The position numbers and the translations under genes are program-made. Below are positions 1,520-35,134 of a stretch of 35,134 bases of DNA, in pieces. Within the stretch, counting starts at the first letter, position 1. Every line of letters begins with the position of its first letter. The notes under the pieces are model-generated. The model had not been told where the DNA came from. It saw only the letters and a list, made by a program, of their open reading frames with translations, and made no database searches. The DNA comes from a virus, in IMG/VR virus record IMGVR_UViG_3300044491_000017, positions 1 through 35,134 of that record. One strand, given 5' to 3'.

Positions 1520-1681
1520 ATGAACAGAATTAAAAAATTTGTAAACAAACTAATCGAAGCACGTCAACGTGAAGTTAATCGTAAGATTGCACTGAATCAA
1601 CTGTATAAAATGTCTGACCGTGAATTACAGGACTTAGGCATTGGACGTGGTGACATTCGTAGAATTGTATATATGAGCTAA
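1520..1681 (+). CDS. DUF1127 (YjiS-like) small protein (53 aa)
   Basis: The ATG at 1520 follows AAGGAG at 1507-1512, and the frame ends with TAA at 1679-1681. The C-terminal half, YKMSDRELQDLGIGRGDIRR, is the diagnostic DUF1127 pattern (helix, then L-x-D-[IL]-G-[IL]-x-R-x-[ED]-I). DUF1127 proteins are abundant in Alphaproteobacteria. Some have been linked to stress, phosphate or RNA-related regulation, but the biochemical activity is not settled. In a phage it may be a captured host regulator or RNA/protein adaptor. It is the first gene after the promoter-like site and lies directly before the lysis genes, 2 bases from the next ATG, so it would be expressed with them. The family call is strong; the role is inference. 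Confidence 0.85.
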   Translation: MNRIKKFVNKLIEARQREVNRKIALNQLYKMSDRELQDLGIGRGDIRRIVYMS

Positions 1682-1683
1682 TA

Positions 1684-1986
1684 ATGGTAGAAGACTACGA
1701 TCTAAATGGTAACGGTATTATTGATCCAGATGAACGTGAGATCATGTTGGAAGATCGTCGTCGTAAAATGGAAGATGCTGATAGCAAAAGGGATACACAA
1801 CGTAGACTTACTGTAGCTTGTGCTGCTGGAATGCTACTATATCCCTTTGCTATTTTAGTTTCTTCTGCACTAGGGCTTAATGAAGCTGCTAGTTTAATTG
1901 CAGATATTGCTACTGTATACGTAGTAGCTGCATCTGGCGTAGTTGCTGCCTACTTTGGCTTTAACGCAATGGAAGCAACAAAATGA
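1684..1986 (+). CDS. EF-hand-containing two-TM membrane protein, lysis-cassette member (100 aa)
   Basis: The N-terminus carries a canonical 12-residue EF-hand calcium-binding loop, D6-L-N8-G-N10-G-I-I-D14-P-D-E17. A charged helix follows (EDRRRKMEDADSKRDTQRR). Two hydrophobic segments come next, roughly residues 43-66 and 69-93 (LTVACAAGMLLYPFAILVSS and an AATVYVVAASGVVAAYF-like stretch). The gene overlaps the holin by ATGA (1983-1986) and lies upstream of the endolysin. A holin, antiholin or membrane-located lysis regulator is a reasonable inference, and calcium responsiveness would be unusual. From memory, similar proteins occur in other marine phages. Only one EF loop is present, so it would need to dimerise or pair for a usual EF-hand fold. 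Confidence 0.7.
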   Translation: MVEDYDLNGNGIIDPDEREIMLEDRRRKMEDADSKRDTQRRLTVACAAGMLLYPFAILVSSALGLNEAASLIADIATVYVVAASGVVAAYFGFNAMEATK

Positions 1987-2369
1987 TACAAGCACTTATT
2001 GGACCAATAGCAGAGTTAGCAGGTGGTTGGCTTAAAGGTAAAGCGGATCAACAAGCGGCTATAACAAATCTTAAGTTAGTAGAAGCAGAAGCTAAAGCTA
2101 CTATTATGAAATCAGCAGCTACGTCTGAAGCTGACTGGGATCGTATTATGGCAGAAGGTAGCCAGAACTCATGGAAAGATGAGTGGCTAACTATTCTCTT
2201 CTCGATTCCACTAATACTTTCTTTTTGTGGAGAGTGGGGACGTACAGTAACTGCTGAAGGATTTGCTGCATTGGAGACTATGCCTGAATGGTATCAGTAT
2301 ACTCTTGGTGTTATTGTAGCTGCAAGCTTTGGCATACGTTCAGCAACTAAATTATTTGGTAAGAGATAA
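1983..2369 (+). CDS. Holin, 3-TM / gene-transfer-agent holin-like (128 aa)
   Basis: Starts with an amphipathic, mildly hydrophobic segment (MIQALIGPIAELAGGWLKG). A charged helical stretch follows (LKLVEAEAKATIMKSAATSE), then two clear membrane segments: WLTILFSIPLILSF (about 71-84) and YTLGVIVAASFGIRSAT (about 106-122). The arrangement fits the GTA_holin_3TM type, which forms lesions in the inner membrane to release the endolysin. It overlaps its neighbours by ATGA upstream and TAATG downstream, so it is coupled to the M15 peptidase gene. Family assignment is from pattern and context. Confidence 0.7.
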   Translation: MIQALIGPIAELAGGWLKGKADQQAAITNLKLVEAEAKATIMKSAATSEADWDRIMAEGSQNSWKDEWLTILFSIPLILSFCGEWGRTVTAEGFAALETMPEWYQYTLGVIVAASFGIRSATKLFGKR

Positions 2370-2839
2370 TGGTATTTAAACTTTCTAAAAAATCTTTGGG
2401 CAAACTTGAAGGTGTACACCCTGACATGGTAGCAACAGTTAAACGTGCTATTGAGTTAACTAAGGTAGACTTTGGTGTTACCTGTGGACTACGTACTGTA
2501 GAAGAGCAGAAGAAGCTAGTAGCTGCTGGCAGATCACAGACAATGAACTCTAAGCATATACCACAGTCTACTGGTTATTCTCATGCGGTAGATCTAGTAG
2601 CGTATGTAGGAAAAGATATTTCTTGGGAACTGAATGTCTATGATGATATTGCAGATGCAATGGCAGAAGCTGCTAATGAAGTAGGTTGCGCTATGAAGTG
2701 GGGTGCTGCTTGGTCAGTAGGTGATATTACTAAGTACGTAGGTACAATGGAAGAAGCTATGATGGAATACATTGATCTTCGTCGTAGCCAAGGTAAACGT
2801 CCGTTTATTGACTCCCCCCATTTTGAATTGATTGTGTAA
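2369..2839 (+). CDS. Endolysin, M15-type zinc D,D-/L-Ala-D-Glu-peptidase (156 aa)
   Basis: Cuts the peptide part of peptidoglycan to lyse the host. The M15 signature is present: substrate-side CGLRTVEEQ (residues 39-47), then the zinc site S-K-H63 ... S-H-A-V-D75 and the C-terminal S-P-H151-F-E-L. H63, D75 and H151 are the likely zinc ligands by comparison with VanY/T5-endolysin-like peptidases. There are several extra residues between H63 and the AVD segment, compared with the usual SxHxxGxAVD. There is no signal peptide, so it needs the holin. The length of about 155 aa fits single-domain phage M15 endolysins. Confidence 0.85.
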   Translation: MVFKLSKKSLGKLEGVHPDMVATVKRAIELTKVDFGVTCGLRTVEEQKKLVAAGRSQTMNSKHIPQSTGYSHAVDLVAYVGKDISWELNVYDDIADAMAEAANEVGCAMKWGAAWSVGDITKYVGTMEEAMMEYIDLRRSQGKRPFIDSPHFELIV

Positions 2840-2848
2840 GGAAATATT

Positions 2849-3220
2849 ATGGCTCGTGAGTTAACAGAACAACAACAAAAATTTCTAGCTGTCTTGTTTG
2901 ATGAAGCAGGTGGTGATGTTCTCACGGCTAAAAAACTAGCTGGCTATTCAGATACTACAAGTACTACTCAAGTAGTAGCTAGTTTAAAAGAAGAGATCAT
3001 TGATGCCACACACATGTTTATGTCACGTAATGCGCCAAAAGCTGCAATGGCTATGGTAGGTGCTTTATATGACCCAACTGAGTTAGGTATCCGTGATAAA
3101 ATGCAAGCAGCAAAAGAGTTACTTGACCGCACAGGCTTAGTAAAAACTGAGAAGATGCAAGTTGAAGCCAAGGGCGGTGTTATGTTAATGCCACCAAAAC
3201 AAATGGAAGACGATGACTAA
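2849..3220 (+). CDS. terS: Probable terminase small subunit (123 aa)
   Basis: ATG at 2849 with AAGGAAATATT upstream. The N-terminal part, TEQQQKFLAVLFDEAGGD followed by TAKKLAGYSDTTSTTQVV, looks like the DNA-binding helix-turn-helix of small terminase subunits. Helices follow, then a C-terminal tail of Gly/Met/Pro and acidic residues (PPKQMEDDD) that could contact the large subunit. It lies two genes before the terminase large subunit and overlaps the next gene by 8 bases (ATGACTAA). In this role it would recognise the packaging site. The call rests on order and the HTH-like region. Confidence 0.65.
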   Translation: MARELTEQQQKFLAVLFDEAGGDVLTAKKLAGYSDTTSTTQVVASLKEEIIDATHMFMSRNAPKAAMAMVGALYDPTELGIRDKMQAAKELLDRTGLVKTEKMQVEAKGGVMLMPPKQMEDDD

Positions 3221-3638
3221 ACCATTAAAGCAATGGAAGTTACCCCAACCAACAGACATTAAAGAAGATAACGAATGGGTTCCTATACCCCGTATATCAA
3301 GAACAATACCCTTTGGGTATGACCTAGACCCCGACGATCCAGACGTACTACTCCCCAATGAACATCAGTTAGATATGTTGATGCAAGCACAACAGTATCT
3401 AAAACAATATTCTTATCGTGAAGTAGCCCATTGGCTTACACGAAATACGGGTAGAGACATATCTCATGTAGGTTTGAAGAAGCGGTTAGACAATGAACGA
3501 AGAAGAAAAAACAAAGCTGGAAGCCTACGCAGATGGGCAAACTATGCGAAAAAGGCAATCGCCAAAGCGGAAGAGATCGAATCAAAACGACTCGGAGCAA
3601 AAACAGATAGCCAAAGTAACGAAGGCAGCACAGCCTAA
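3213..3638 (+). CDS. HTH-like basic protein between TerS and TerL (141 aa)
   Basis: A short acidic/proline-rich N-terminal half (DLDPDDPDVLLPNEHQLD) is followed by a probable helix-turn-helix, YSYREVAHWLTRNTGR then DISHVGLKKRLDNERRRK (about residues 70-105), and a basic helical tail. It overlaps the gene upstream by 8 bases. Its last 146 bases are shared, in another frame, with the start of the terminase large subunit. It is likely a DNA-binding packaging accessory, possibly the real small subunit or a partner of the gene before it. Which of the two is TerS cannot be settled here. Confidence 0.7.
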   Translation: MTKPLKQWKLPQPTDIKEDNEWVPIPRISRTIPFGYDLDPDDPDVLLPNEHQLDMLMQAQQYLKQYSYREVAHWLTRNTGRDISHVGLKKRLDNERRRKNKAGSLRRWANYAKKAIAKAEEIESKRLGAKTDSQSNEGSTA

Positions 3639-5073
3639 ACCTGCACCAATTGTAAATGAAATACCAATTGAACAGGCACATAACGTAATCTTTAAACCTA
3701 ACGCTGGTCCTCAAACAGATTTCTTGGCTGCAGGTGAACGAGAAGTATTATATGGTGGCAGTGCTGGTGGCGGTAAGTCTTATGCTATGTTGGCTGATCC
3801 CTTACGTTTTATGGGTCACCCAGCTTTTTCTGGACTACTACTTCGCCATACAACAGAAGAACTTAGGGAGCTTATATTTAAGTCTCAAGAAATGTACCCT
3901 AAGATTTGGCCTGGAATTAAATGGTCAGAAAGAAAGATGCAGTGGACTGCGCCTTCTGGTGCGAGATTGTGGATGTCCTATCTCGATAAAGAAGATGACG
4001 TTCTGCGCTACCAAGGTCTAGCATTTAGCTGGATAGGCTTTGACGAATTGACGCAATGGCCCACACCATTTGCATGGAATTACATGCGGTCACGTCTACG
4101 GTCCACTGCACCTGATCTACCTGTGTATATGAGGGCCACTACTAACCCTGGGGGTAGAGGACATCACTGGGTTAAAAAAATGTTTATTGATCCTGCACCT
4201 GCAGGTAAGTCTTTTGAAGCTACCGATATTGAAACAGGTGAAGTATTACGTTATCCTGCAGGGCATGAAAAAGCAGGTAGACCTCTATTTAAACGTAGAT
4301 TCATACCAGCTAGACTAAAAGATAATCCGTATTTATCTGAGCAAGGTGACTATGAAGCAATGCTACTATCCCTACCAGAACAGCAACGTAGGCAGTTGCT
4401 AGAAGGTGATTGGGACATTAAAGAAGGTGCAGCATTTACAGAATTTGATAGAAGTATTCATGTAGTCGAACCGTTTCCAATTCCAAGTAACTGGGTTAAG
4501 TTTAGAGCATGTGACTACGGTTACGGATCATACAGTGCGGTACTTTGGTTTGCTGTATCTCCTAATGAACAAATAATATGTTATAGGGAACTATACGTAA
4601 GTAAAGTATTAGCTACTGATCTTGCAGATATGGTATTGCAACTTGAAGCCGAAGATGGTAATATTAAGTATGGTGTTCTTGACTCTAGCTTATGGCATAA
4701 GCGAGGTGATACTGGTCCCAGTCTAGCAGAACAAATGATTATGCGTGGTTGTCGCTGGCGACCATCAGATCGTTCCAGAGGCTCACGTGTAGCTGGTAAA
4801 AACGAAATACACAGACGTTTACAGTTAGATGAATTTACAGAAGAACCAAGACTAGTATTTTTTAATACTTGCACAAACATGATAGCACAGTTACCTGCAT
4901 TGCCTATTGATAAAAAGAATCCAGAAGATATTGATACATTATCAGAAGATCACTTGTACGATGCTTTAAGGTACGGTATAATGTCCAGACCACGTTTTAG
5001 TGTTTTTGACTTTGATCCTCACGGAAGACCCTCTACAGGAATGAGAATAGCAGATAGTACCTTTGGATACTAA
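3493..5073 (+). CDS. terL: Terminase large subunit (526 aa)
   Basis: The packaging motor ATPase and nuclease. Walker A is G-G-S-A-G-G-G-K-S at residues 88-96, Walker B is SWIGFDE with D184-E185, and ATTNPGG follows at about 216-222. Nuclease-domain acidic residues are visible in ACDYGYG, YGVLDSS and LYDALRYG. An adenine/Q-motif-like stretch, FKPNAGPQTDF, precedes Walker A, so the start must lie upstream of about residue 60. The two ATG choices, 3493 and 3544, both lie inside the preceding gene, giving an overlap of 95-146 bases. The first 50 residues are Lys/Arg/Gln-rich. The portal gene follows after 13 bases. Confidence 0.95.
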   Translation: MNEEEKTKLEAYADGQTMRKRQSPKRKRSNQNDSEQKQIAKVTKAAQPKPAPIVNEIPIEQAHNVIFKPNAGPQTDFLAAGEREVLYGGSAGGGKSYAMLADPLRFMGHPAFSGLLLRHTTEELRELIFKSQEMYPKIWPGIKWSERKMQWTAPSGARLWMSYLDKEDDVLRYQGLAFSWIGFDELTQWPTPFAWNYMRSRLRSTAPDLPVYMRATTNPGGRGHHWVKKMFIDPAPAGKSFEATDIETGEVLRYPAGHEKAGRPLFKRRFIPARLKDNPYLSEQGDYEAMLLSLPEQQRRQLLEGDWDIKEGAAFTEFDRSIHVVEPFPIPSNWVKFRACDYGYGSYSAVLWFAVSPNEQIICYRELYVSKVLATDLADMVLQLEAEDGNIKYGVLDSSLWHKRGDTGPSLAEQMIMRGCRWRPSDRSRGSRVAGKNEIHRRLQLDEFTEEPRLVFFNTCTNMIAQLPALPIDKKNPEDIDTLSEDHLYDALRYGIMSRPRFSVFDFDPHGRPSTGMRIADSTFGY

Positions 5074-5086
5074 TAAGGAAAAGTAA

Positions 5087-7231
5087 ATGGCAGAAGATAC
5101 AGATGTCTTTATTGAAGACGATGCAATCGTTTTAGAAGATTCAGAAGATACAAATATTGACGATGCAGATACATCTAAAATTATTCCATTTATTATGGAA
5201 AGATTTAGTCGTGCCGAAGACTATCGTAGACAAGACGAAGAACGTTGGTTACGTGCTTATCGTAACTATCGTGGTATATACGGTCCAGAGGTTCAGTTTA
5301 CGGAAGCTGAAAAATCTCGTGTATTTATTAAGGTAACTAAAACAAAAACACTAGCTGCGTATGGACAAATTGCAGATGTTCTTTTTGCTAAAAATGCTTT
5401 TCCAATTAGTATTGATCCTACGGAACTTCCAGACGGTATTGTTGAAGATGTATCGTTTGATCCAGCTTTACCAGAAGAATTACGTGAGGATAAAAAGTCA
5501 CAGCCTATATCTCCCTATGGCTATAGAGGTGATGGTAAAGAACTACCTGCAGGTGCTACTTCAAAAACACTACAGGAACTACTTAATCCTGAATTAAATA
5601 AAAAACTAGAAACAATTAATGGTGTTCAAGCTGGAGCAGGAACAACTCCTACATCAGTTACTTTTAGTCCTGCTATGATAGCAGCTAAAAAAATGCAGAA
5701 AAAAATTCAAGATCAGTTAGAGGAATCTTCTGCATCTAAACACCTACGTAATACTGCATTTGAAATGGCGTTATTTGGCACAGGGATCATGAAAGGTCCA
5801 TTTGCTGTAGATAAAGAGTATCCTAGTTGGAATGATGAAACAGGAGAATACTCTCCTATATTTAAAACAATGCCACAAGTATCACATGTATCAGTGTGGA
5901 ACTTTTACCCAGACCCCGATGCAAATAATATGGATGAAGCACAGTATGTTATTGAACGTCACAAACTATCACGTTCACAATTACGTGCATTAAAAAGACG
6001 ACCTTACTTCCGTGCGTCTGTTATAGAAGACGTAATTTCTTTTGGTGAAAATTACATCAAGTCTTATTGGGAAGATGATCTATCTGATTATGCACCAGAG
6101 TCTGGCGTAGAACGTTTTGAAGTACTTGAATATTGGGGCATGGTTGATGTAGCAATGCTTATGGATCAAGGCGTAGATATTCCTCGTGAATTAGAAGACG
6201 CAGATGAACTACAAGCAAATGTTTGGATTTGTAATGGTAAACTCTTGCGTATGGTTATGAATCCATTTAAACCTGCTAAGATTCCTTACATGGCTGCACC
6301 TTATGAACTTAATCCATATTCATTTTTTGGTGTTGGTATTGCTGAGAACATGGATGATACGCAGACGCTGATGAATGGTTTCATGCGTATGGCGGTAGAC
6401 AATGCTGTATTATCTGGTAATCTACTGATTGAAGTAGATGAAACTAACCTAGTTCCAGGTCAAGACCTATCAGTATACCCTGGCAAAGTATTCCGTAGAC
6501 AAGGTGGTGCACCAGGGCAAGCAATCTTTGGTACTAAGTTCCCCAACGTTGCAGGTGAAAACTTACAGTTGTTTGACAAGGCACGAGTACTTGCTGATGA
6601 GTCCACAGGCTTCCCATCATTTGCTCATGGACAAACTGGCGTACAAGGTATCGGACGTACAGCATCTGGTATTAGTATGCTAATGGGTGCAGCTACAGGC
6701 AGCATCAAGAATGTAATTAAAAACGTAGATGATTATTTACTACGCCCACTAGGTGAGGGCATGTTCCGCTTTAACATGCAGTTTGACTTTGATCCTGAGA
6801 TTAAAGGTGACCTAGAAGTTAAAGCTCGTGGAACAGAATCACTTATGGCTAATGAAGTACGCAGCCAACGACTTATGCAATTTATGCAAGTTGCATCCCA
6901 ACCAGCACTTGCACCGTTTGCTAAGTTTCAATACATTATTCGTGAAATTGCAAAATCTCTAGACCTTGACCCTGACAAAGTAACTAACAATATGAGTGAT
7001 GCTGCAATTCAAGCTGAGTTAATGAAATCATTCCAGCAAGAACAGCAACAGCAGCAAGGGGGAGCACCAGCAGGTGTAAACCCAATGGATACATCAGGAG
7101 CAGGTGGGGGTACTATAGGCATGGGCCAAGCACCTACACCGCAAGAGCAAGGATTTAGCGGTAATGCAGGACAGCAGGGAGCACCACAGCAAGCTGAAGG
7201 CACTGGTCAGCAACCAAGCCCAATGGCGTAG
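5087..7231 (+). CDS. Portal (head-to-tail connector) protein (714 aa)
   Basis: Forms the dodecameric ring at the capsid vertex through which DNA passes. Its size and its position directly after TerL fit. It has an acidic N-terminus, then AEDYRRQDEERWLRAYRNY, which resembles the N-terminal helix of podovirus portals. Later come a WNFYPDPDA segment (about 270) and a stem/wing region ending in TGVQGIGRTASGISMLMGAA (about 523-542), the usual late portal motif. The C-terminal 60 residues are low-complexity Gln/Gly/Pro-rich (QQEQQQQQGGAPAGVNP), probably flexible. The AAGGAAAAGTAA upstream is a good ribosome binding site. The last 68 bases overlap the next gene. Confidence 0.9.
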   Translation: MAEDTDVFIEDDAIVLEDSEDTNIDDADTSKIIPFIMERFSRAEDYRRQDEERWLRAYRNYRGIYGPEVQFTEAEKSRVFIKVTKTKTLAAYGQIADVLFAKNAFPISIDPTELPDGIVEDVSFDPALPEELREDKKSQPISPYGYRGDGKELPAGATSKTLQELLNPELNKKLETINGVQAGAGTTPTSVTFSPAMIAAKKMQKKIQDQLEESSASKHLRNTAFEMALFGTGIMKGPFAVDKEYPSWNDETGEYSPIFKTMPQVSHVSVWNFYPDPDANNMDEAQYVIERHKLSRSQLRALKRRPYFRASVIEDVISFGENYIKSYWEDDLSDYAPESGVERFEVLEYWGMVDVAMLMDQGVDIPRELEDADELQANVWICNGKLLRMVMNPFKPAKIPYMAAPYELNPYSFFGVGIAENMDDTQTLMNGFMRMAVDNAVLSGNLLIEVDETNLVPGQDLSVYPGKVFRRQGGAPGQAIFGTKFPNVAGENLQLFDKARVLADESTGFPSFAHGQTGVQGIGRTASGISMLMGAATGSIKNVIKNVDDYLLRPLGEGMFRFNMQFDFDPEIKGDLEVKARGTESLMANEVRSQRLMQFMQVASQPALAPFAKFQYIIREIAKSLDLDPDKVTNNMSDAAIQAELMKSFQQEQQQQQGGAPAGVNPMDTSGAGGGTIGMGQAPTPQEQGFSGNAGQQGAPQQAEGTGQQPSPMA

Positions 7232-7382
7232 CTTTGAAGATTACTTAGACTTTTTAATTAATCAACAACACCGTACTATGGAACAAACAAGTGAAATTGT
7301 AGCAGTACACAGAGCACAGGGTGCAATATATCAATTACGTAGACTTAAACTTTTAAGAGATGAGATTTTAAAGAATGGCTGA
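7164..7382 (+). CDS. Small helical post-portal protein (72 aa)
   Basis: A charged helical protein (WRSFEDYLDFLINQQHRTME, then AQGAIYQLRRLKLLRDEIL). Small proteins like this follow the portal gene in several marine phage groups. ATG at 7164 lies inside the portal frame and gives a 68-base overlap. There is no ATG after the portal stop that would keep the conserved WRSFEDYLD segment, but a CTG near 7203 preceded by GAAGG is an alternative start. The stop overlaps the next gene by 8 bases (ATGGCTGA). A head-completion or assembly role is inferred from position. Confidence 0.7.
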   Translation: MQDSREHHSKLKALVSNQAQWRSFEDYLDFLINQQHRTMEQTSEIVAVHRAQGAIYQLRRLKLLRDEILKNG

Positions 7383-10807: not shown

Positions 10808-11670
10808 GTGAGAATATGGAAGTAATGGCTTCTGAAGTAGAAGCCCCTAAGAAAGTTGCATTTGCAAATCGTAAGTACTCAAATGCTGAACGCATTAAAA
10901 AAGAAGAAGAAGAATTAGAAGAACTAATTGCACAACAAAAAGCTGAAGCTGAACCAGTAGAAGCTGAACCACAAGGCGCAGAAGAAAAAAGTTTTAAGAA
11001 ACGTTATGGTGATCTACGCCGACACATGCAAGATAAAGAAAAAGAGTGGGAAGATAAATTTAATAAACTTCAATCTCAGCTTTCTGATGCAACTAAAAAA
11101 GAAATTCGCTTACCAAAGTCTGATGAAGACATTGAAGCATGGACACAAAAATATCCTGATGTAGCTGCAATAGTAGAAACAATTGCAATTAAAAAAGCAA
11201 AAGAACAAGCTGCTGAGTTAGAAGATCGTGTAAAACTAGTAGATGAAATGCGTATTACAGCATCTCGTGAAAAAGCAGAAGCTGAGTTAATGCGACTACA
11301 TCCAGACTTTGATGACATTCGTGATAGTGACGATTTTCACAATTGGGCAGAAGAACAACCTAAGTGGGTTCAAGATGCTCTTTATGAAAATGATGCGGAT
11401 GCACGATCAGCAGCACGTGCCATTGATCTTTACAAGGCAGACCGTGGCATAAACACTAAGAAACCACGAAGTACAGATAGGGATGCGGCACGTTCAGTAG
11501 GCACACGCAATAGTCGCAGCCGTCCTGAAACAGATGAAAGATCTTCGTACTATAAAGAATCAGACGTACAGAAGATGTCCGCTAGTGAATACGAAAAAAT
11601 GTCTGACGATATTATGGAAGCAATACGTACAGGCAAATTTATATACGATTTATCTGGTTCTGCTAGATAA
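10804..11670 (+). CDS. Capsid assembly scaffolding protein (288 aa)
   Basis: Directs assembly of the procapsid and is then removed. It is highly charged and coiled-coil-like: ERIKKEEEELEELIAQQKAE (about 30-49), then HMQDKEKEWEDKFNKLQSQL (about 74-93). A middle helical region with repeated Glu/Lys follows, and a basic Ser/Arg linker (STDRDAARSVGTRNSRSRPE) leads to a C-terminal helix (SASEYEKMSDDIMEAIRTG) likely to contact the coat protein. Its position directly before the major capsid gene is the usual one. The upstream sequence GTAAGGAAATCACA gives the ribosome binding site. Confidence 0.85.
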   Translation: MSENMEVMASEVEAPKKVAFANRKYSNAERIKKEEEELEELIAQQKAEAEPVEAEPQGAEEKSFKKRYGDLRRHMQDKEKEWEDKFNKLQSQLSDATKKEIRLPKSDEDIEAWTQKYPDVAAIVETIAIKKAKEQAAELEDRVKLVDEMRITASREKAEAELMRLHPDFDDIRDSDDFHNWAEEQPKWVQDALYENDADARSAARAIDLYKADRGINTKKPRSTDRDAARSVGTRNSRSRPETDERSSYYKESDVQKMSASEYEKMSDDIMEAIRTGKFIYDLSGSAR

Positions 11671-11674
11671 TCTA

Positions 11675-11702
11675 TTGACATATAGTTTTTTATACGTATA
11701 AC
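11675..11702 (+). promoter_or_regulatory. Candidate sigma70-type promoter for the major capsid gene
   Basis: TTGACA (11675-11680), 16 bases, TATAAC (11697-11702), with a second TATAAC at 11711-11716. The -35 is a perfect consensus and the -10 differs by one base. It is the only such site near the capsid gene, and it recalls the 1433-1461 site. Transcription would start near 11709, giving a leader of about 234 nt. Confidence 0.6.
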
Positions 11703-11717
11703 TATATGTGTATAACT

Positions 11718-11760
11718 ATAAGTGATATAGCCTCCTATACGGATTACCTATGTCACTTAT
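11718..11760 (+). other. Hairpin in the capsid-gene leader
   Basis: ATAAGTGATAT (11718-11728) pairs with ATGTCACTTAT (11750-11760), 11 bp with one G-U pair. The loop of 21 bases (11729-11749) contains the CTCCT segment complementary to the capsid Shine-Dalgarno. It starts only about 10 nt after the expected transcription start, so it would be a 5' end stabiliser or a regulatory hairpin. Confidence 0.5.
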
Positions 11761-11802
11761 TTAATATTTCAGCAAACAAAAATAAGTCTTTACGGATTAC
11801 CT
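11738..11802 (+). repeat. 12-bp direct repeat TACGGATTACCT
   Basis: TACGGATTACCT occurs at 11738-11749 and again at 11791-11802. The first copy lies in the loop of the leader hairpin. The second is followed by CCGTA (11815-11819), which can pair with the TACGG of the repeat. It may be a protein-binding or RNA structural element of the capsid leader. Confidence 0.45.
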
Positions 11803-11942
11803 GATAAGAGTGGCCCGTATACCATATAAAATATAACTGATCATTATATATTATAGAGTATATGCACCCATAGACTATTAGCCTCTAGTTAAATACTTGT
11901 ACAGTTTGCATCTGTAAATTCTAATGCTAAAGGAGAATTAAC

Positions 11943-13013
11943 ATGGCATTCGGAGCAGTTTCTGGTTACGGAAACTTACCAAACGGTAATTTCTCACCAG
12001 TTATTTACAGCAAACAGGTGCAACTTGCATTCCGCAAAGCATCTATTGCTGACGCAATTACAAATAATGATTACTTCGGTGAAATCGCAAACATGGGCGA
12101 CACTGTTAAAATCATTAAAGAACCTGAAATCTCAGTATCTGCATATCTACGTGGTACAACAATTTCACCACAAAACTTGACAGATAACGATTTCTCTCTA
12201 GTCGTAGATAAGGCGAACTACTTTGCCTTCAAAGTGGACGATATTGAAGAGGCACATAGCCACGTCAATTTCCAAAGCCTTGCATCTGATCGTGCAGCTT
12301 ATCGTTTGGCTGACCAGTATGACCAAGAAGTTCTTGGCTATATTTCTGGTTACAAACAGTCTGCACTTCACGCAAATGCTTCTGCAGTTAACGATGTTGT
12401 TAACGGCACTAAAGCAAACACATCTGCAGGTTCAGACGAACTTTTGACAGCAAACAAACTGCGTAAAGACTCGTTTGGCAACATCACCACAACTGGTGCT
12501 GGTGACCATTCTATTCCTGTTGCAGCACGTTTGCCAGGTGCAACTGCACTTCCAACTGCTTATGTTTCACCAGCTATGCTTGTGGCACGTATGGGCCGTT
12601 TGTTGGACGCACAAAATGTTCCAACAGCAGGTCGCTGGATCGTTATTGATCCAGTAATGATGGAAGTACTTCGTGATGAAGACTCACGTTTGCTACAAGC
12701 AGACTGGGGTGGCTCTGGTATCCAAAATGGATTGGTATTGAACAACTTCCACGGTTTCCGTGTACACGTTTCAAACAACCTTCCATCAGTAGGTACAGGT
12801 GCTTCAACAACAGGTACAGCAAACCAAAACACTAACTATGGTGTTATTGTTGCTGGTCATGATTCTTCTGCTGCAACTGCAGAGCAAATCAACAAAACTG
12901 AAACATACCGTGACCCTGACTCTTTTGCAGACATCGTTCGTGGTATGCACCTATATGGTCGTAAAATTCTACGTCCAGAAGCGTTGGTTACAGCTAAGTA
13001 CAACTTGGCATAA
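11943..13013 (+). CDS. Major capsid protein (356 aa)
   Basis: The coat subunit of the head. The N-terminus is MAFGAVSGYGNLPNGNFSPV, followed by a region typical of podovirus-type coat proteins (YSKQVQLAFRKASIADAITN, then MGDTVKIIKEPEISVSAYLR). The C-terminus ends YGRKILRPEALVTAKYNLA, as in many phage coat proteins. The gene has the strongest ribosome binding site in the window (AAAGGAGAATTAAC), a promoter of its own and a stable hairpin after its stop, all consistent with a very highly expressed protein. Codon use is more C-ending than in its neighbours (AAC, GAC, TTC), also usual for coat genes. Fold assignment to HK97-like is assumed from the family. Confidence 0.85.
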   Translation: MAFGAVSGYGNLPNGNFSPVIYSKQVQLAFRKASIADAITNNDYFGEIANMGDTVKIIKEPEISVSAYLRGTTISPQNLTDNDFSLVVDKANYFAFKVDDIEEAHSHVNFQSLASDRAAYRLADQYDQEVLGYISGYKQSALHANASAVNDVVNGTKANTSAGSDELLTANKLRKDSFGNITTTGAGDHSIPVAARLPGATALPTAYVSPAMLVARMGRLLDAQNVPTAGRWIVIDPVMMEVLRDEDSRLLQADWGGSGIQNGLVLNNFHGFRVHVSNNLPSVGTGASTTGTANQNTNYGVIVAGHDSSAATAEQINKTETYRDPDSFADIVRGMHLYGRKILRPEALVTAKYNLA

Positions 13014-13021
13014 TCTTAAGG

Positions 13022-13045
13022 GAGGGGCTGGGAAACTGGCCCCTT
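13022..13045 (+). terminator. Strong GNRA-loop hairpin after the capsid gene (attenuator or mRNA stabiliser)
   Basis: AGGGGCTGG (13023-13031) pairs with CTGGCCCCT (13036-13044) around a GAAA tetraloop, with two G-U pairs. It lies 10 bases after the capsid stop. Only two T follow, so it is not a complete intrinsic terminator. It could cut downstream transcription, or protect the 3' end of the capsid mRNA. It ends just 8 bases before the next gene, whose start has no visible ribosome binding site. Confidence 0.55.
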
Positions 13046-13052
13046 ACTGCCC

Positions 13053-13673
13053 ATGATATTTATTTCTAGTGACGATAAAATAGCCTATTACCACGCACCA
13101 AAAAATGGGTCACGTACAGTACTAGGTTACTTAGCACTAACTAAAGAACCTACTTTATTTGATACACACCCACAACATTTTCATCCAGTAAATGACGAAG
13201 TTTATAATGAACTCAGACGTAGGACACAAATACTTGGTAGACATGACTACGATCCACGGCTAGTACCAGTAGTAGACAATCCAATACGTATAGTAGTTAA
13301 ACGTGATCCTGTAAAAAGATTTATCAGTGGCTATACTAATAGAGTATTACACCACAATAAAATGCGAGATAAACCCGATTTTTCTGAGTTCATTATAGAT
13401 TTTGACAAATACCATGCAACGTATTCTGATATACAAACACACTTCAAACCTCAAGTACGTTTTTTTGGATTAGATAAAAGTATATATACACATATATTTG
13501 ATACCTCTGAGATGCACTTAGTTAAAGAATTATTTGAAGATACGTATCAAAAAAAGTTTCCTGATCTGCACTTACAACAAGGTGGCACAAACGAAAAGCC
13601 TACTGTTACAAAAGAACAACAGAGTTGGATTATGGAAAAATATAGGATTGACTACGATGCAGGGTGGTGTTAA
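13053..13673 (+). CDS. Sulfotransferase-family protein (206 aa)
   Basis: Would transfer a sulfo group from PAPS. The 5'-phosphosulfate loop is seen as H-A-P-K-N-G-S-R-T-V (residues 14-23), matching the PK[TN]GS[TR] pattern of Sulfotransfer_2 proteins. The 3'-phosphate site is seen as V-K-R84-D-P-x-x-R-F-I-S92-G-Y. A conserved HxHP-like segment (PQHFHPV) lies between. The start has no Shine-Dalgarno (ACTGCCCATG), suggesting low translation or coupling. It lies between the capsid gene and the decoration gene and is not needed for virion assembly, so it is an accessory gene. It could modify a host glycan, lipid or a phage protein; the substrate is unknown. Sulfotransferases are also known in cyanophages. 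Confidence 0.75.
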   Translation: MIFISSDDKIAYYHAPKNGSRTVLGYLALTKEPTLFDTHPQHFHPVNDEVYNELRRRTQILGRHDYDPRLVPVVDNPIRIVVKRDPVKRFISGYTNRVLHHNKMRDKPDFSEFIIDFDKYHATYSDIQTHFKPQVRFFGLDKSIYTHIFDTSEMHLVKELFEDTYQKKFPDLHLQQGGTNEKPTVTKEQQSWIMEKYRIDYDAGWC

Positions 13674-14043
13674 AATCTTACACTGTAAGACAAACAATTT
13701 TAATACTAAAATAATTGAATTAAAAAATATTAATTCTGTAAATGATAACCTACAAGATAAAGCATTTGATCATACATTAAAAACATCCATAAAAAATAAA
13801 GGTATGTTAAATCCTATTCTTGTTTGTACAGACATAGATTTTAAACATACAGACATAAGACAGTTTGAACGTAGACCTGTTCCTGAAAATATAACAGAAA
13901 CCTATAGATGTCTGATAGGTAATAACAGATATAAGTATGCTGTTGAGAATGACTATACACATATAGAATGTCACGTAGTTAGTACTTATGAAGAGGTACA
14001 AAAGGCTCACCTAAAAACTCAGATAGAGCCACGTAAGATGTAA
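13657..14043 (+). CDS. ParB/sulfiredoxin-like nuclease-fold protein (128 aa)
   Basis: The frame is open from 13534, but the ATG at 13657 with AGGA at 13645-13648 before it gives a sound start, overlapping the sulfotransferase by 17 bases. A ParB-like core is visible: HTLKTSIKNKGMLNPILV (39-56), then YRCLIGNNRYKYAVEND (83-99), where GNNRY corresponds to the GxxR box of the fold, followed by HIECHVV. ParB-fold proteins bind or cut nucleic acid, or use CTP; this one is short and has no HTH. It is coupled to the sulfotransferase, so the two probably act together. It is more basic and AT-richer than the surrounding structural genes. Confidence 0.6.
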   Translation: MQGGVKILHCKTNNFNTKIIELKNINSVNDNLQDKAFDHTLKTSIKNKGMLNPILVCTDIDFKHTDIRQFERRPVPENITETYRCLIGNNRYKYAVENDYTHIECHVVSTYEEVQKAHLKTQIEPRKM

Positions 14044-14055
14044 AGGAAATTAAAC

Positions 14056-14493
14056 ATGGCTATCACAACAGCAATGTGCACAAGCTTCAAACAAGAATTA
14101 CTTGGCGGTGTCCATGATTTGGATACTGATGTACTTAAGCTTGCACTTATCAAGCAGACACCTACAGGAACGTATGGTGCTGCCACTACTAACTATTCAG
14201 ACGTTACAGGTAACTCTGATGAAGCTTCTGGCACTAACTACACAACAGGCGGTCAAGCCTTAGATGGTGCTACTATCTCCGTAGACAGTACTACAGCTAT
14301 CGTAGATTTTACTGATGAAGTATTTTCTAATGTAACTGTTGCCTGTGACGGTTGTATCATTTATAATAGCTCCCAAGGTAACAAAGCCGTATGTGTTATT
14401 GACTTTGGTGGTACAGTATCTGCTACTGCAGGTGACTTAACTATTCAGTTCCCAACAGCAGATTCTTCTAACGCAATCATTCGTATTGCCTAA
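14056..14493 (+). CDS. Head-decoration or neck structural protein (145 aa)
   Basis: Beta-rich, low-charge protein (LDTDVLKLALIKQTPTGTYG, then ALDGATISVDSTTAIVDFTD, then CDGCIIYNSSQGNKAVCVID). The pattern, with a short Thr/Gly-rich loop and ending in SSNAIIRIA, is of a kind often seen in marine phage virion modules. It has an AAAGGAAATTAAAC ribosome binding site. Two cysteines close together (CDGC) are unusual for a phage cytoplasmic protein. A role in the head surface or neck is inferred. Confidence 0.7.
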   Translation: MAITTAMCTSFKQELLGGVHDLDTDVLKLALIKQTPTGTYGAATTNYSDVTGNSDEASGTNYTTGGQALDGATISVDSTTAIVDFTDEVFSNVTVACDGCIIYNSSQGNKAVCVIDFGGTVSATAGDLTIQFPTADSSNAIIRIA

Positions 14494-14503
14494 GAGGTAA
14501 GAC

Positions 14504-15358
14504 ATGGCGTTCTACAGTTCTACAGATGCCCTATACGGTATTGGTGTATATGGATCAGCACGATACGGAGTTGTAGAACCGGTAGTCACCCTTACAGGTG
14601 TAAGTGCAGTAGCTAATACTAGAACGCTTCACCTAGATGTTTTTGAAATTGATGTAACAGAGCCTATCTATAATGCACCAAGTGCCACAGGCTCTGTAGG
14701 TAGTTTAACCTTAGACACCACCGCAGGTATCACAAGCGTTGGCCTTACAGGTACTATCAATTCTGTAGGTGTAGGTGTAAGTGTACCACTAGCTGTTTCT
14801 GTAGAAGGTGTAGTAAGCACTAACACAGTAAAAGAAAATGTGACGTTAAAGCCAGATGGCTTAGGTGCTACATTTACTATAAACGATGCTGGACTAAATA
14901 TTAAGTCTATTAACCGTGTTCCTGTAACGGGAGTACCTCTGGTTGGTGCAATAGGTACACCAGAGCCTATCCCCACAGAAAGCCTACTCAGTGTATCTGC
15001 AACTGGTTATGTAAACGGCGTTACCGTAAATGTAACAGAGAACGTCGTCACCACAACTGCCCTATCAGGTTCTATTAACGGTGCAGTTACATTTAGTAAT
15101 ACACATAATACACAAAGTGTCTTAGCTAACTTTACTGTAGGAATACTCTCCCTTAGCGTAGACGAACCTCTCACAACTACACCTAGCCTTACTGTAAGTG
15201 CTTCCCCTGTTAAAGCAAACCCAACAGAGAAATTAAATAGTACATCTGCTGTAGGACAAGCTGGATCAGTAACAACAACAGCTGAGGTATTTGACTTCCA
15301 AGCAGTTAAGAACGAATACAGTCGCAAGCGTACTGTCATACTACCAAGAGCAGCCTAA
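14504..15358 (+). CDS. Repetitive beta-rich virion protein (284 aa)
   Basis: The N-terminus is MAFYSSTDALYGIGVYGSAR, with the YGxGxYGxARYG pattern. The rest is built of loose repeats of V-T-x(n)-A/G with many Thr, Val and Ser (for example SVSATGYVNGVTVNVTENVV), giving immunoglobulin-like or beta-helical fibre character. The C-terminus is YSRKRTVILPRAA. It is coupled to the next gene through TAATG at 15356-15360. Likely a head fibre, decoration or tail accessory protein. Confidence 0.7.
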   Translation: MAFYSSTDALYGIGVYGSARYGVVEPVVTLTGVSAVANTRTLHLDVFEIDVTEPIYNAPSATGSVGSLTLDTTAGITSVGLTGTINSVGVGVSVPLAVSVEGVVSTNTVKENVTLKPDGLGATFTINDAGLNIKSINRVPVTGVPLVGAIGTPEPIPTESLLSVSATGYVNGVTVNVTENVVTTTALSGSINGAVTFSNTHNTQSVLANFTVGILSLSVDEPLTTTPSLTVSASPVKANPTEKLNSTSAVGQAGSVTTTAEVFDFQAVKNEYSRKRTVILPRAA

Positions 15359-15528
15359 TGTCTACAGTAGCAGAAAGAACAGTACTCGTACCAGATCAGG
15401 TTAGGCTAGTCTTTATAGATCTGTTTGACGAAAATAGAATTGTAAATGTTAGAGCAGAAAACAGAACTGTAAACGTTGAGAGAAAACCTAACTCTGCTGA
15501 TAGAACAGTATATGCAAATGAGGATTAG
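15358..15528 (+). CDS. Small repeat-bearing protein (56 aa)
   Basis: An open frame beginning at the TAATG overlap and ending with TAG at 15526-15528, two bases before the next ATG. It repeats an E-N-R-T/I-V-N-V unit: DENRIVNVRAENRTVNVERK, then ADRTVYANED, with an earlier AERTVLV. The pattern looks like short beta strands. It is exactly placed between two structural genes, with coupled starts on both sides, so it is probably real. Function unknown, possibly a neck or fibre component. Confidence 0.7.
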   Translation: MSTVAERTVLVPDQVRLVFIDLFDENRIVNVRAENRTVNVERKPNSADRTVYANED

Positions 15529-15530
15529 AA

Positions 15531-15878
15531 ATGAGCTTTCGTTGGCCTAATAAAGACCCTGATGAAACATTAGACTACAGTGTTGACTGGTCAAGATTTC
15601 TTGGTACAGCAACTATTGCTTCAGTTAAATGGTACGTTAAGTCTTCTTTGTATGATACAAAAACACTATTACAAGTTGGCGATGATTTAACTACAGCATC
15701 AGGTGGTGCTACAACTGACGGTATTCAGAATGTGGCTGAGACAAACACAAGCACTGTTGCTACTATTAATATCGGTGATGGTCAGAATAATGTAGAGTAT
15801 ACTTTCTACTGCCAGATGATAGACAGTACAGGTAGTACAGCAGAACGTAGTATTAAGTTAAGATTAAAGGAACGTTAA
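15531..15878 (+). CDS. Ig-like small virion protein (115 aa)
   Basis: MSFRWPNKDPDETLDYSVDW at the start, a beta-sandwich-like middle (ATIASVKWYVKSSLYDTKTL) and VEYTFYCQMIDSTGSTAERS near the end, which resembles an immunoglobulin-like fold found in phage neck and tail genes. There is one Cys. It ends one base before the start of the tubular-A-like gene, so it is coupled. Inference: head-tail connector accessory. Confidence 0.7.
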   Translation: MSFRWPNKDPDETLDYSVDWSRFLGTATIASVKWYVKSSLYDTKTLLQVGDDLTTASGGATTDGIQNVAETNTSTVATINIGDGQNNVEYTFYCQMIDSTGSTAERSIKLRLKER

Positions 15879-15879
15879 G

Positions 15880-16596
15880 ATGGCGTATGATTATCTAGGT
15901 CTTGTCAATGACGTAAACCGTAGACTTAACGAAGTTGAATTAAACTCTACTAACTTTTCTACAGCTACTGGTGAATACTCAATGATTAAAGATGCAGTTA
16001 ATGCGTCTATTCGTTTTATTAACCAACATGAGTTTGAGTGGCCCTTTAACCATGTAGAGGAACAAGACGTTCTTACTCCAGGTATTGTTAGATATTCTTA
16101 CCCTGCCGATGCTAAAGTTCTAGACTTTGATAGTTTTAGAATTAAAAGAGATGCTACACTTGGTAATAACACTGTAAAATTAAAATCTATAACTTACGAA
16201 GAATACCTACAAAATTACGTAGATATTGAATATAATAGTACAACTTCTTTAAGAAGACTTCCAGCTTATGTAGTTAAAACACCAAGCCAAGAGTATGCTT
16301 TAGTATATGCACCCGATAAAGCATACACTGTTATTTACGAGTACTATAGACTACCTGTTGACTTAATTAATGCTACAGACGTTCCAAGTATCCCTGAGCA
16401 ATTCAGGTATGTCATTGTGAATGGTGCTATGCATTTTGCTTATCTATTCAGAGGCGAAAGCCAAGAGGCAGGTATAATGCAACAACGCTTTGAGCAAGAA
16501 ATAAAACAAATGAGAAGTTTGTATATTAATAGATACGATTACATAAGGTCTACAGTTATAAGTACTTCTTTTTCTGCGTCAACTAGAGCTTTTTAA
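15880..16596 (+). CDS. Tail tubular protein A-like / head-tail adaptor (238 aa)
   Basis: YDYLGLVNDVNRRLNEVELN at the N-terminus, AVNASIRFINQHEFEWPFN in the middle and a late helical region (QQRFEQEIKQMRSL) resemble the gatekeeper/adaptor (tubular A) proteins of short-tailed phages, which join the portal to the nozzle. The length is close to T7 gp11 (196 aa) but longer. The next gene is the nozzle-like protein, as expected. It starts at ATG 15880 right after the upstream TAA. Confidence 0.75.
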   Translation: MAYDYLGLVNDVNRRLNEVELNSTNFSTATGEYSMIKDAVNASIRFINQHEFEWPFNHVEEQDVLTPGIVRYSYPADAKVLDFDSFRIKRDATLGNNTVKLKSITYEEYLQNYVDIEYNSTTSLRRLPAYVVKTPSQEYALVYAPDKAYTVIYEYYRLPVDLINATDVPSIPEQFRYVIVNGAMHFAYLFRGESQEAGIMQQRFEQEIKQMRSLYINRYDYIRSTVISTSFSASTRAF

Positions 16597-32983: not shown

Positions 32984-33060
32984 TGGCCCACCCCACAGGA
33001 CTCGAACCTGTAACCTACTGATTAGAAGTCAGTTGCTCTATCCAGTTGAGCTAGGGGTAG
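32984..33060 (-). tRNA. tRNA-Arg(UCU): tRNA-Arg (anticodon UCU)
   Basis: A full 77-nt cloverleaf with encoded CCA. The acceptor CTACCCC pairs with GGGGTGG. The D arm is GCTC/GAGC, the anticodon stem ACTGA/TCAGT has the loop CTTCTAA (anticodon TCT), the variable loop is 5 nt, and the T arm is ACAGG/CCTGT with TTCGAGT. It reads AGA codons, which occur often in the phage genes. Its 5' end overlaps the last 23 bases of the glutaredoxin frame, whose TAG stop is nucleotides 21-23 of the tRNA. The next gene's ribosome binding site lies 4 bases after CCA. It is therefore cut out of a polycistronic transcript. Confidence 0.95.
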
Positions 33061-33283
33061 TAATTAAAAATTGCTTCAGTTCTGTGTATCCACCAATATG
33101 TTTTCCCTCACTATCAAATATCTGTGGTACTGTTTGTATACCAGATAGTTTTAAAAGATTCAATAACCATTTACTACTACCACTTTGAATATTATATTCT
33201 ACGTATTGTTTACCAGATCCTTTTAATAAGGCTTTAGCATCGTCACAAAAGTTACACTGGTTTCGGCTTATCACTACCCACAT
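33038..33283 (-). CDS. Glutaredoxin (81 aa)
   Basis: A dithiol-type thioredoxin-fold protein: ISRNQC10-N-F-C13 is the active site (CxxC), followed by TVPQIF (the cis-proline loop, about 50-55) and IGGYTELKQF (the GG motif for glutathione binding). Typical length is 80-85 aa. It probably reduces the phage class II RNR or other oxidised proteins. It overlaps DUF1289 by 32 bases upstream. The last codons, ...TTPSSTG, and the stop are encoded by the 5' end of the tRNA-Arg gene, so the C-terminus is constrained by tRNA sequence. Confidence 0.9.
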   Translation of the reverse strand: MWVVISRNQCNFCDDAKALLKGSGKQYVEYNIQSGSSKWLLNLLKLSGIQTVPQIFDSEGKHIGGYTELKQFLITTPSSTG

Positions 33284-33461
33284 TCTGTTGTCTCCATATT
33301 AACTCATGTTTCAGTTTTGTTTGTTCGTATTCACTCATTATACTCCACTCTCGTATCTCGTCAAGGGTTCGTTTACACCCTGCACAATAACCGTGTTCAA
33401 TACGACACACTAAAATGCAGGGTGATGGAACTTTACCTACGTTAGGTCTACGATTTCGCAT
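33252..33461 (-). CDS. DUF1289 protein (69 aa)
   Basis: The family signature is present: S-P-C15-I-L-V-C19-R-I, then G-Y-C26-A-G-C29-K-R-T-L-D-E-I-R-E-W. The four Cys suggest an iron-sulfur or zinc site. DUF1289 proteins are widespread in Proteobacteria with no firmly established function. The gene starts inside the end of the RNR gene (25-base overlap), so it is translated in its wake and may assist or regulate redox maintenance of RNR. The C-terminal part (LKHELIWRQQNVGSDKPKPV) is specific to this protein. Confidence 0.85.
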   Translation of the reverse strand: MRNRRPNVGKVPSPCILVCRIEHGYCAGCKRTLDEIREWSIMSEYEQTKLKHELIWRQQNVGSDKPKPV

Positions 33462-35134
33462 GAGTCACCAGAGCAAGCAAGTGTCTGACTACCAGAAGTA
33501 TTGTCCTCTTTCTCGTACTCAGATAGCTTTGACCAGTCAATAGACTTAGGCATTTGTTTTAGCATAGCTGTGTATGTTTCCTTGTCTACATCCTGATATG
33601 GTGCCTGTTGATACGTGTGTTCATTGTAGGGTAGGAATGATACACCCGACATTTCATCGAAGTGTTCATACACAAATGCACCTACTTCAAACCATTCGTC
33701 TTTCTTAACGTTGATAGTGACAGATGGTTTGTGTTCACACCAGTGACGTTGATACATCAGCCACATTTCTAGTTGGTCAATGGCAGATAGATCTGACGTG
33801 ACTACTGCCTTGTTAGGTGCCTTAACAGGAAAGCTGAACACTGTAGTTTGATCAGGCTTAAATACATCAGGCTCGTTTGGAATACCTTGATCCTTCATGA
33901 AGGTGGTAAGAGGGTCTTTGTTATCTCCTCTAACGGTTCTAATGTAATAAGGTGAATGTCGTGCATGTATCCCAGAGGCAGAGTCAACAAGTTGTGATAC
34001 AGTTCCGCTTGGTTTGACACAGCTGATGGCAGCAGCGACAGGAATACCAAGATGATCAGCCCACTCAGCATTGGTAGCAACTGCAACATTACGTAACCTT
34101 TCTAACGTTTTATCTAGACCAGCATTCTTTGTAGTCATCAGTGGGTTGTCCATTATCCCCGTGAGAGACACACCAAGCAGTCGTTCTTCCTCGGTATTTC
34201 GTTGCCACACCTTTCGCAAGTACGGGAACTTCGTATACGCAGATTGTATAGTGCCAAGGATTGTTGCCAGACGAACTTTATTTTCCAGATCATCGATACT
34301 ATCCGTCGATCTGACAACAACCTCTGTGAGATTGCAGAACTGGTAAGGCCGTAAGATAATTTCAGAGCAAGGATTGGTGCCAAATTCCCAATTTGTATCA
34401 CGCCTATTATTCTTTGCAGCTTGTTTGATAGATGCTTGACGATTGAAGATACCACGTTCACCACTCCCCGATTCTACTAATGCCATCCATTCACGCATGA
34501 AGGATAGACTGTCTGGTTTTTCTGTATAGCTTACTGAGTTATTAGCAAGTGCACGTTGTGGGTTGTTAGTCCACCAGTCACCTGACTTAGCATGACGCAT
34601 ACGATCATCACTTAGGTTAGACAGTGAGATCATAGCACTACGACGTACACCGCCAACTACCACAACCTCACCTATCTTACACATGATGTCGTGACATTCG
34701 ATGGATGATAGCTTACGTCCCTGAGCCTCTTTGAAGATCTTGATAGTGAAGTTGAATAGATCAACTAAAGGTGCTGGTCCGCTTGCACGTCCACCAAACG
34801 TCTTCAGTCGTGCACCTGCTGGACGTACTAAACTTACATCCCACTTAGGAATCTCACCAGCCCAGAGGAGTGCAAGCAATTGTCTGAACGCCTTAGCCCA
34901 ACCTTCCTTACTGTCCTTGACGACAATCATTGTGTCGCTGTTGAACAGCTCTGGTACTTCTGGAAGCTTGCTAACAAACTGACGTTCGACACTGAACCCA
35001 ACACCAGTACCGCACAACAGGATGAACATAGCCTCATCGAAAGATTTAGGATCATCTACGGGTAGGTAGCTACAGTTATAACCTGCGGTGTTGTCACGTT
35101 CGAGTGCAGGTCCAGCTGTCATCAATGCTCTCAT
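33437..35134 (-). CDS. nrdJ: Class II (adenosylcobalamin-dependent) ribonucleotide reductase, 5' end cut by the window
   Basis: Reduces ribonucleotides to deoxyribonucleotides using a cobalamin-derived radical. The fragment of 565 aa has the monomeric RTPR-type active site: C21 (AGYNCSYL), N254-P-C256-S-E258 with the radical cysteine and glutamate, and C267 (FCNLTE), at the same spacing of 11 as C408/C419 in the Lactobacillus leichmannii enzyme. The C-terminal redox pair is C554-S-G-D-S-C559. The first residues seen correspond to about residue 100 of that enzyme, so roughly 100 residues lie outside the window; the M at its edge is not a start. Nearby glutaredoxin would reduce it. Activity needs B12 from the host. 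Confidence 0.93.
   Translation of the reverse strand: MRALMTAGPALERDNTAGYNCSYLPVDDPKSFDEAMFILLCGTGVGFSVERQFVSKLPEVPELFNSDTMIVVKDSKEGWAKAFRQLLALLWAGEIPKWDVSLVRPAGARLKTFGGRASGPAPLVDLFNFTIKIFKEAQGRKLSSIECHDIMCKIGEVVVVGGVRRSAMISLSNLSDDRMRHAKSGDWWTNNPQRALANNSVSYTEKPDSLSFMREWMALVESGSGERGIFNRQASIKQAAKNNRRDTNWEFGTNPCSEIILRPYQFCNLTEVVVRSTDSIDDLENKVRLATILGTIQSAYTKFPYLRKVWQRNTEEERLLGVSLTGIMDNPLMTTKNAGLDKTLERLRNVAVATNAEWADHLGIPVAAAISCVKPSGTVSQLVDSASGIHARHSPYYIRTVRGDNKDPLTTFMKDQGIPNEPDVFKPDQTTVFSFPVKAPNKAVVTSDLSAIDQLEMWLMYQRHWCEHKPSVTINVKKDEWFEVGAFVYEHFDEMSGVSFLPYNEHTYQQAPYQDVDKETYTAMLKQMPKSIDWSKLSEYEKEDNTSGSQTLACSGDSCEIVDLT

Follow-up and report, generated by a model that had tools for sequence, protein, structure and literature searches.

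The ParB/Srx fold serves as a module for NTP binding (PMC12704722). Phages encode short single-domain ParB-fold proteins as well as fusion proteins that join this fold to a Methyltransf_23 domain (PMC12704722, Kaljevic et al. 2025), and the same paper covers bacterial ParB-SAM-methyltransferase fusions that bind ATP, phage proteins in which ParB folds are fused to DNA methyltransferases, and the ParB-like DndB. The function of phage sulfotransferases, the second protein family of interest here, was called unclear in a related marine-phage paper (PMC10580990), and ParB, sulfotransferase and methyltransferase all go unmentioned in the paper on the diversity of HMO-2011-type phages (PMC9038755). 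The open-access literature (subscription papers and preprints lay outside the search) yielded no paper that links ParB-like proteins, phages and sulfotransferases in the sense described below.

The window, that is, the whole stretch of DNA that was analyzed (35,134 nt), is a 35-kb virus fragment from an HMO-2011-type marine podophage, and its capsid protein shares 87% identity with the coat protein of roseophage CRP-1 and 71% with that of HMO-2011. The features of the region are the following:

11943..13013, + strand: major capsid protein gene (PHROG 267 major head protein, E 4e-60), the upstream border of the slot
13023..13044, + strand: GC-rich stem-loop directly 3' of the capsid gene, with a 9 bp stem and a loop of 4
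13053..13673, + strand: gene for a putative sulfotransferase (ST) of the PAPS-binding type, 206 aa, the exchangeable partner
13657..14043, + strand: gene for a predicted single-domain ParB/Srx-fold protein (PB), 128 aa, the constant piece of the cassette
13657..13673, + strand: overlap of the ST and PB reading frames, 17 nt, with the geometry of translational coupling
14056..15878, + strand: three structural-region genes (phrog_644 and two others), a separately variable block outside the cassette
15880..16596, + strand: tail gene (phrog_10775 tail protein, E 2e-32), the downstream border of the slot and used as such in the survey

Both cassette genes are AT-richer than the window (GC content of 0.34 for ST and 0.29 for PB, compared with 0.405). 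The first-pass annotation had described the pair as interrupting the order of capsid and decoration genes. The pair indeed lies 3' of the capsid gene and its hairpin, but the wording is loose, as the genes that follow (14056-15878) are optional and are missing 3' of PB in L003, L010-L014 and CRP-9. The presence of these three genes, always as a unit between PB and the tail gene, does not depend on the enzyme, and the group of loci that combine a decoration gene with PB has them as well. A scan of positions 11600-16000 for promoters and terminators gave a number of sites no higher than in shuffled sequences. Elsewhere in the window, a minus-strand gene for a B12-dependent ribonucleoside-triphosphate reductase (33437-35134; below the equivalog cut-off) reaches the window end and is adjoined by a glutaredoxin-like gene (33038-33283, minus strand).

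The hairpin at 13023-13044 (-19.2 kcal/mol, z -2.2) was discovered through the comparison of loci, not through the promoter/terminator scan. Every distinct locus in which the capsid gene is not followed by a decoration gene (67 of 67) has a stem of at least 8 bp, a stem length that is reached by 14% of shuffled sequences, and five of the nine consensus pairs have changes on both sides. In the 10 loci examined that do have a decoration gene at this place, the hairpin is located 3' of the decoration gene. The cassette lies just 3' of the hairpin in all podophage loci examined. Possibly, the hairpin is a terminator- or attenuator-like element, or an mRNA 3'-end element, that marks the insertion slot; as a partial terminator or mRNA 3' end, it would hold the expression of the capsid gene above that of the cassette. 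Further hairpins in relatives have the coordinates 6072-6134 in L121 and 6027-6098 in L125, among others.

The upstream gene of the pair had been proposed to encode a sulfotransferase with PAPS-binding motifs, and this proposal held. ST matches the Pfam family Sulfotransfer_2 with 43 bits (E 8e-11), above the curated cut-off of 22. Lys17 (APKNG), which binds the 5'-phosphosulfate, and the 3'-phosphate motif R84-D-P-x-x-R89-F-x-S92 do not vary among 21 homologues, which reach down to about 21% identity. The AlphaFold2 model of ST has a pLDDT of 88, and in the PDB fold search sulfotransferases take the first 16 places, with a best E of 5e-3 and no match below E 0.001. The predicted fold is that of a P-loop sulfotransferase, and ST is a putative PAPS-type sulfotransferase. 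The STs found in the slot are 65-98% identical among themselves, and the closest ST outside of the slot, in contig L019, is about 41% identical. Altogether, 18 distinct distant STs occur without PB, and a ParB_N match sought in 16 records with distant STs was found in none of them, so that the pairing of ST with a ParB-fold protein is not general. In L019, the region 1554-7270 includes a carbamoyltransferase gene, and a P-loop kinase and a cytidylyltransferase-like ORF lie 3' of ST; these genes are possibly a PAPS-making or a nodulation-like modification set. Their resemblance by eye to APS kinase and ATP sulfurylase was set aside as evidence, because Pfam gave only a sub-threshold APS_kinase match and a general cytidylyltransferase-like match.

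PB starts at a conserved ATG at 13657, whereas the longer listed frame opens at a TTG at 13534, outside of the conserved protein. With 18.6 bits against ParB_N, PB is sub-threshold (cut-off 26.3); seven of 18 PB homologues match ParB_N at E values up to 0.01, the best at 6.6e-5. All six matches of a 51-sequence PB profile to the PDB are ParB, albeit with weak E-values, and in the profile alignment the GNNRY of PB is in register with the GERRW of the ParB chains. For the PB model (pLDDT 89), the structure search gave sulfiredoxin, ParB and Noc (E 5e-5 to 1e-3), with KorB and SbnI among the further matches. The predicted ParB/Srx fold of the short GNNRY protein, already named in the first-pass annotation, is clear despite the sub-threshold Pfam score, and the structure predictions for both proteins that had been recommended there as a check agree with the two family assignments. 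The P-motif of PB is GNNR in 61 of 69 distinct PB ORFs and GNQR in another 4, with R91 as its arginine; D30, D34 and E104 are also conserved.

PB has its fold in common with sulfiredoxin, SerK and SbnI, enzymes in which the ParB/Srx fold is the single domain or the N-terminal one, as matched in the structure search. However, PB has an asparagine at the position of the catalytic cysteine of sulfiredoxin box II. Box II of sulfiredoxin is a Cys-containing motif of the GCHR type, and the motif of the free serine kinases SerK and SbnI is of the GHHR type and goes with a catalytic Glu. Because GNNR differs from both, neither sulfiredoxin nor SerK chemistry can be assumed for PB. A pattern scan of bacterial and archaeal genomes for PB relatives led to none that was confirmed, and thus there is no host operon from which the function of PB could be read. 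In T4-like marine contigs (L004, 6001-6629, and L005-L009), two tandem overlapping ParB-fold genes are flanked by genes that resemble those of the small and large terminase subunits (terminase names by eye).

The place behind the capsid gene was surveyed in IMG/VR contigs and named phages; slot enzymes were searched with close patterns, which more distant slot enzymes could escape, and the ST carriers are mostly short metagenomic contigs. The slot is empty (16-116 nt) in CRP-1, CRP-13, CRP-2, CRP-235, CRP-738, CRP-3 and many contigs, and empty slots with the same capsid flank account for 29 of 126 distinct rows. A decoration-type or other gene occupies the slot in HMO-2011, CRP-345 and others. 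ST together with PB is present in the window, L003, L010-L015, L164 and L177, while in L016-L018 the ST is cut off by the contig end. Isolate CRP-9 and about 30 contigs have PB with an alternative partner, a SAM methyltransferase of the Methyltransf_23 type (MT; 44 bits, cut-off 27). The view of the pair as an accessory cassette is right; the slot contents are patchy among relatives and often absent altogether. The pair itself, which was to be sought in other phage genomes, recurs in further contigs, but ST and PB are not fixed partners: in the 62 rows with PB, the overlapping partner is MT in 33 and ST in 7, whereas PB occurs without an enzyme in 9 rows on its own and in 12 rows behind a decoration gene. 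The loci with a decoration gene and PB form a separate PB clade. The solitary and the decoration-linked copies, together with the T4-like copies of the terminase region, imply that PB can act without ST or MT. A role of PB in making PAPS, which would be specific for ST, was rejected, as PB is commoner with MT and is also found alone.

The reverse does not apply, as PB is located directly 3' of all 40 distinct slot enzymes (32 MT, 8 ST) that have at least 250 nt downstream, a set that includes near relatives and falls into fewer clusters. The 17-base overlap reported for the window was confirmed at 13657-13673 and is in the same frame in related loci. The overlaps range from 23 to 62 nt for MT-PB and from 17 to 32 nt for ST-PB, and the relative frame is always the same (an overlap of 140 nt for the window and near copies is obtained when PB is counted from the TTG start). 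In none of the MT-PB loci seen are the two fused into one polypeptide; MT and PB are encoded by separate genes that overlap. Where dS is unsaturated, dN/dS is 0.05-0.12 for ST and 0.08-0.20 for PB, so that both genes are under purifying selection, and these values (0.05-0.2), together with the conserved overlap frame in related loci, exclude a chance origin of the ST/PB overlap. Other genes are also found in this neighborhood. HNH-type endonuclease genes lie at or beside the same capsid-adjacent place in L111 (2391-2810), L130 (4315-4884) and L242 (5516-5992), and an HNH endonuclease-like gene is present at or near the slot position in ctYwJ313. A different methyltransferase gene is found further upstream, behind the long gene that precedes the scaffold-like gene, in L122 (2739-3434; CRP-13) and L123 (2905-3609; CRP-345).

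The distribution of the enzymes follows the phylogeny of neither PB nor the capsid protein. The seven ST carriers are scattered in a tree of the 62 PBs, where a single ST clade is rejected (AU p 1.9e-6), and at least three changes are forced for ST (starred branches) and at least five for MT. On the capsid tree, the slot contents are equally patchy. The capsids nearest to that of the window (93% identity) go with MT, near-identical capsids are found with ST, with MT or with nothing, and L150 and L151 have PB whereas L048 has an empty slot, although the capsids are 97-98% identical. The borders of the exchange can be read from L012 (ST) and L179/L186 (MT), which share 88% DNA identity until about 25 nt 5' of the ST start, and in which homology is back exactly at the ST stop codon (3821), with 80-84% identity onward. 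Because identity breaks before ST and resumes at its stop codon, these alignments show that the enzyme ORFs are swapped whole between constant upstream and downstream flanks, while PB stays.

The capsid as a substrate of ST or MT is unsupported: capsids that hardly differ go with ST, with MT or with nothing in the slot. Exclusion matched to the tail fiber is also unsupported; in the only comparison possible, window versus L003, the STs are near-identical and the tail fibers have about 36% identity. A virion-specific substrate is argued against, because the ST allele tracks neither the capsid nor, in this one comparison, the fiber, and the evidence leans towards an ST target on the host side. 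In cyanophage ACG-2014f, ST relatives cluster with genes for a GDP-mannose dehydratase, an epimerase and glycosyltransferases, and the relative in L020 is adjoined by an epimerase and glycosyltransferases. MT relatives adjoin GT8, GT9, GT2 and annotated sialyltransferase genes, and in two phages they lie inside the structural gene region. As the relatives of both enzymes lie in glycan-tailoring neighborhoods, our best guess is that a glycan is capped with sulfate or methyl. Modification of a glycan or of the cell surface, the latter being one of the functions suggested in the first-pass annotation, is the option we prefer. Late expression of the cassette is likely, because the slot lies within the structural gene order.

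We tentatively favor, at somewhat less than even confidence, a late, swappable tailoring cassette that places sulfate or methyl on a glycan-like target and has a nucleotide-binding ParB-fold partner. The cassette would occupy a recombination slot 3' of the capsid gene, and the enzyme would add sulfate (in the window) or methyl (elsewhere) late in infection to a host-surface glycan, a virion glycan or another small hydroxyl-bearing molecule. The modification would change how the cell or the virion is recognized, for instance by other phages. PB would bind a nucleotide through its GNNR P-motif and regulate, dock or activate the enzyme from the overlapping gene. A nucleotide-dependent enzyme partner is favored for PB because the fold is NTP-binding, fusions to Methyltransf_23 are known, and MT belongs to the same Pfam family. 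It is possible, but rather less than probable, that the ParB-fold NTPase-like protein is a shared subunit that regulates or docks interchangeable STs and MTs, with the enzyme swapped as a whole gene; such a two-part system with exchangeable partners appears undescribed in the open-access literature searched. The one-way dependence, in which no slot enzyme occurs without PB but PB often occurs without an enzyme, fits PB as an enzyme partner.

The same dependence also fits an alternative in which PB is a mere downstream crossover flank. PB and the enzyme would then be functionally separate, PB being an old resident of the slot with an assembly, packaging or NTP-related role, and ST or MT a free-standing moron that recombination places only between the homologous flanks of capsid gene and PB, so that the pairing is a by-product of the crossover sites. 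The 9 and 12 PB rows without an enzyme, the PB homologues that T4-like contigs have between putative terminase genes, the exchange of enzyme for enzyme with homologous flanks on both sides, and the distant STs without PB all agree with this explanation. However, none of the 40 distinct slot enzymes lacks PB, although empty slots are common (29 of 126 distinct rows) and those with the same capsid flank could have taken up an enzyme alone; moreover, all pairs keep the same overlap frame, and in other phages the ParB fold is found fused to a methyltransferase of this family (PMC12704722). We regard functional separation as a doubtful but serious possibility.

It is quite improbable that the slot is spread by PB acting as a nuclease or mobility protein with a ParB fold, in the manner of free-standing homing endonucleases, with the enzyme as cargo. 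The patchiness of PB at 97-98% identical capsids (L150/L151 versus L048) would be expected of such a protein, and HNH endonuclease-like genes occur at or near the same place in L111, ctYwJ313 and ctDrO704; in the latter, an HNH_3 gene precedes and abuts the MT homologue. Yet no nuclease motif was identified in PB, and the name of one weak PHROG is the only link to a nuclease family; GNNR, the type of motif on which NTP binding relies, is intact, and the fold is treated as an NTP-binding module (PMC12704722).

DNA modification and a defence or counter-defence module, both also raised in the first-pass annotation, fared no better. An enzyme that modifies nucleic acid or a defence metabolite, with PB recognizing DNA, would be in line with the ParB folds fused to phage DNA methyltransferases and the ParB-like DndB (PMC12704722), and one PB profile match is phrog_498, a DNA methyltransferase. 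This explanation is nevertheless quite improbable as well: MT is of the Methyltransf_23 type, relatives of both enzymes accompany glycan genes in other phages, PB, with only 128 aa, has no match to an HTH domain, and no PADLOC model matches ST or PB, while MT has one weak match (17 bits), so that a convincing match to known defence models is missing. A partition (ParABS) role for PB has no support; PB comprises only the N-terminal fold of ParB, without the HTH DNA-binding and C-terminal dimerization domains, and no ParA is annotated in the CRP-9 record.

The exchange of the enzymes and the pairing of ST with a ParB-fold protein appear to be undescribed in the open-access literature searched. 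The slot ties phage sulfotransferases to the short single-domain phage ParB-fold proteins, which have no assigned job (PMC12704722), and belongs to a widespread group of marine phages with a cultured member, CRP-9, that carries the MT version. It also holds natural controls in one place, namely the empty slot, PB alone, MT with PB and ST with PB, which make it possible to ask directly if tailoring enzymes are switched by a ParB-fold protein and which molecules they decorate.

Compared with known systems, the slot ST belongs to the same family as the Sulfotransfer_2 enzymes of phage glycan clusters (for example cyanophage ACG-2014f, phrog_3542), with the same PAPS motifs and about 27% identity over the full length; however, the ACG-2014f-type STs reside in glycan biosynthesis clusters without PB, whereas the slot ST resides in a structural operon together with PB. 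Similarly, MT is homologous (31-38% identity) to FkbM/Methyltransf_23-type enzymes of Caulobacter phages, ctDrO704 and Tetraselmis viridis virus S20, which have glycosyltransferase genes nearby and no recognized PB adjoining. The closest parallel to PB is found in the study of Kaljevic et al. (2025; PMC12704722), which includes very short single-domain phage ParB-fold proteins like PB and, as in MT-PB, a link between the ParB/Srx fold and Methyltransf_23 in phages. Those fusions are one polypeptide, whereas the slot has separate overlapping genes with an exchangeable partner, and a sulfotransferase, the partner of PB in the window, is not mentioned in that study (0 occurrences).
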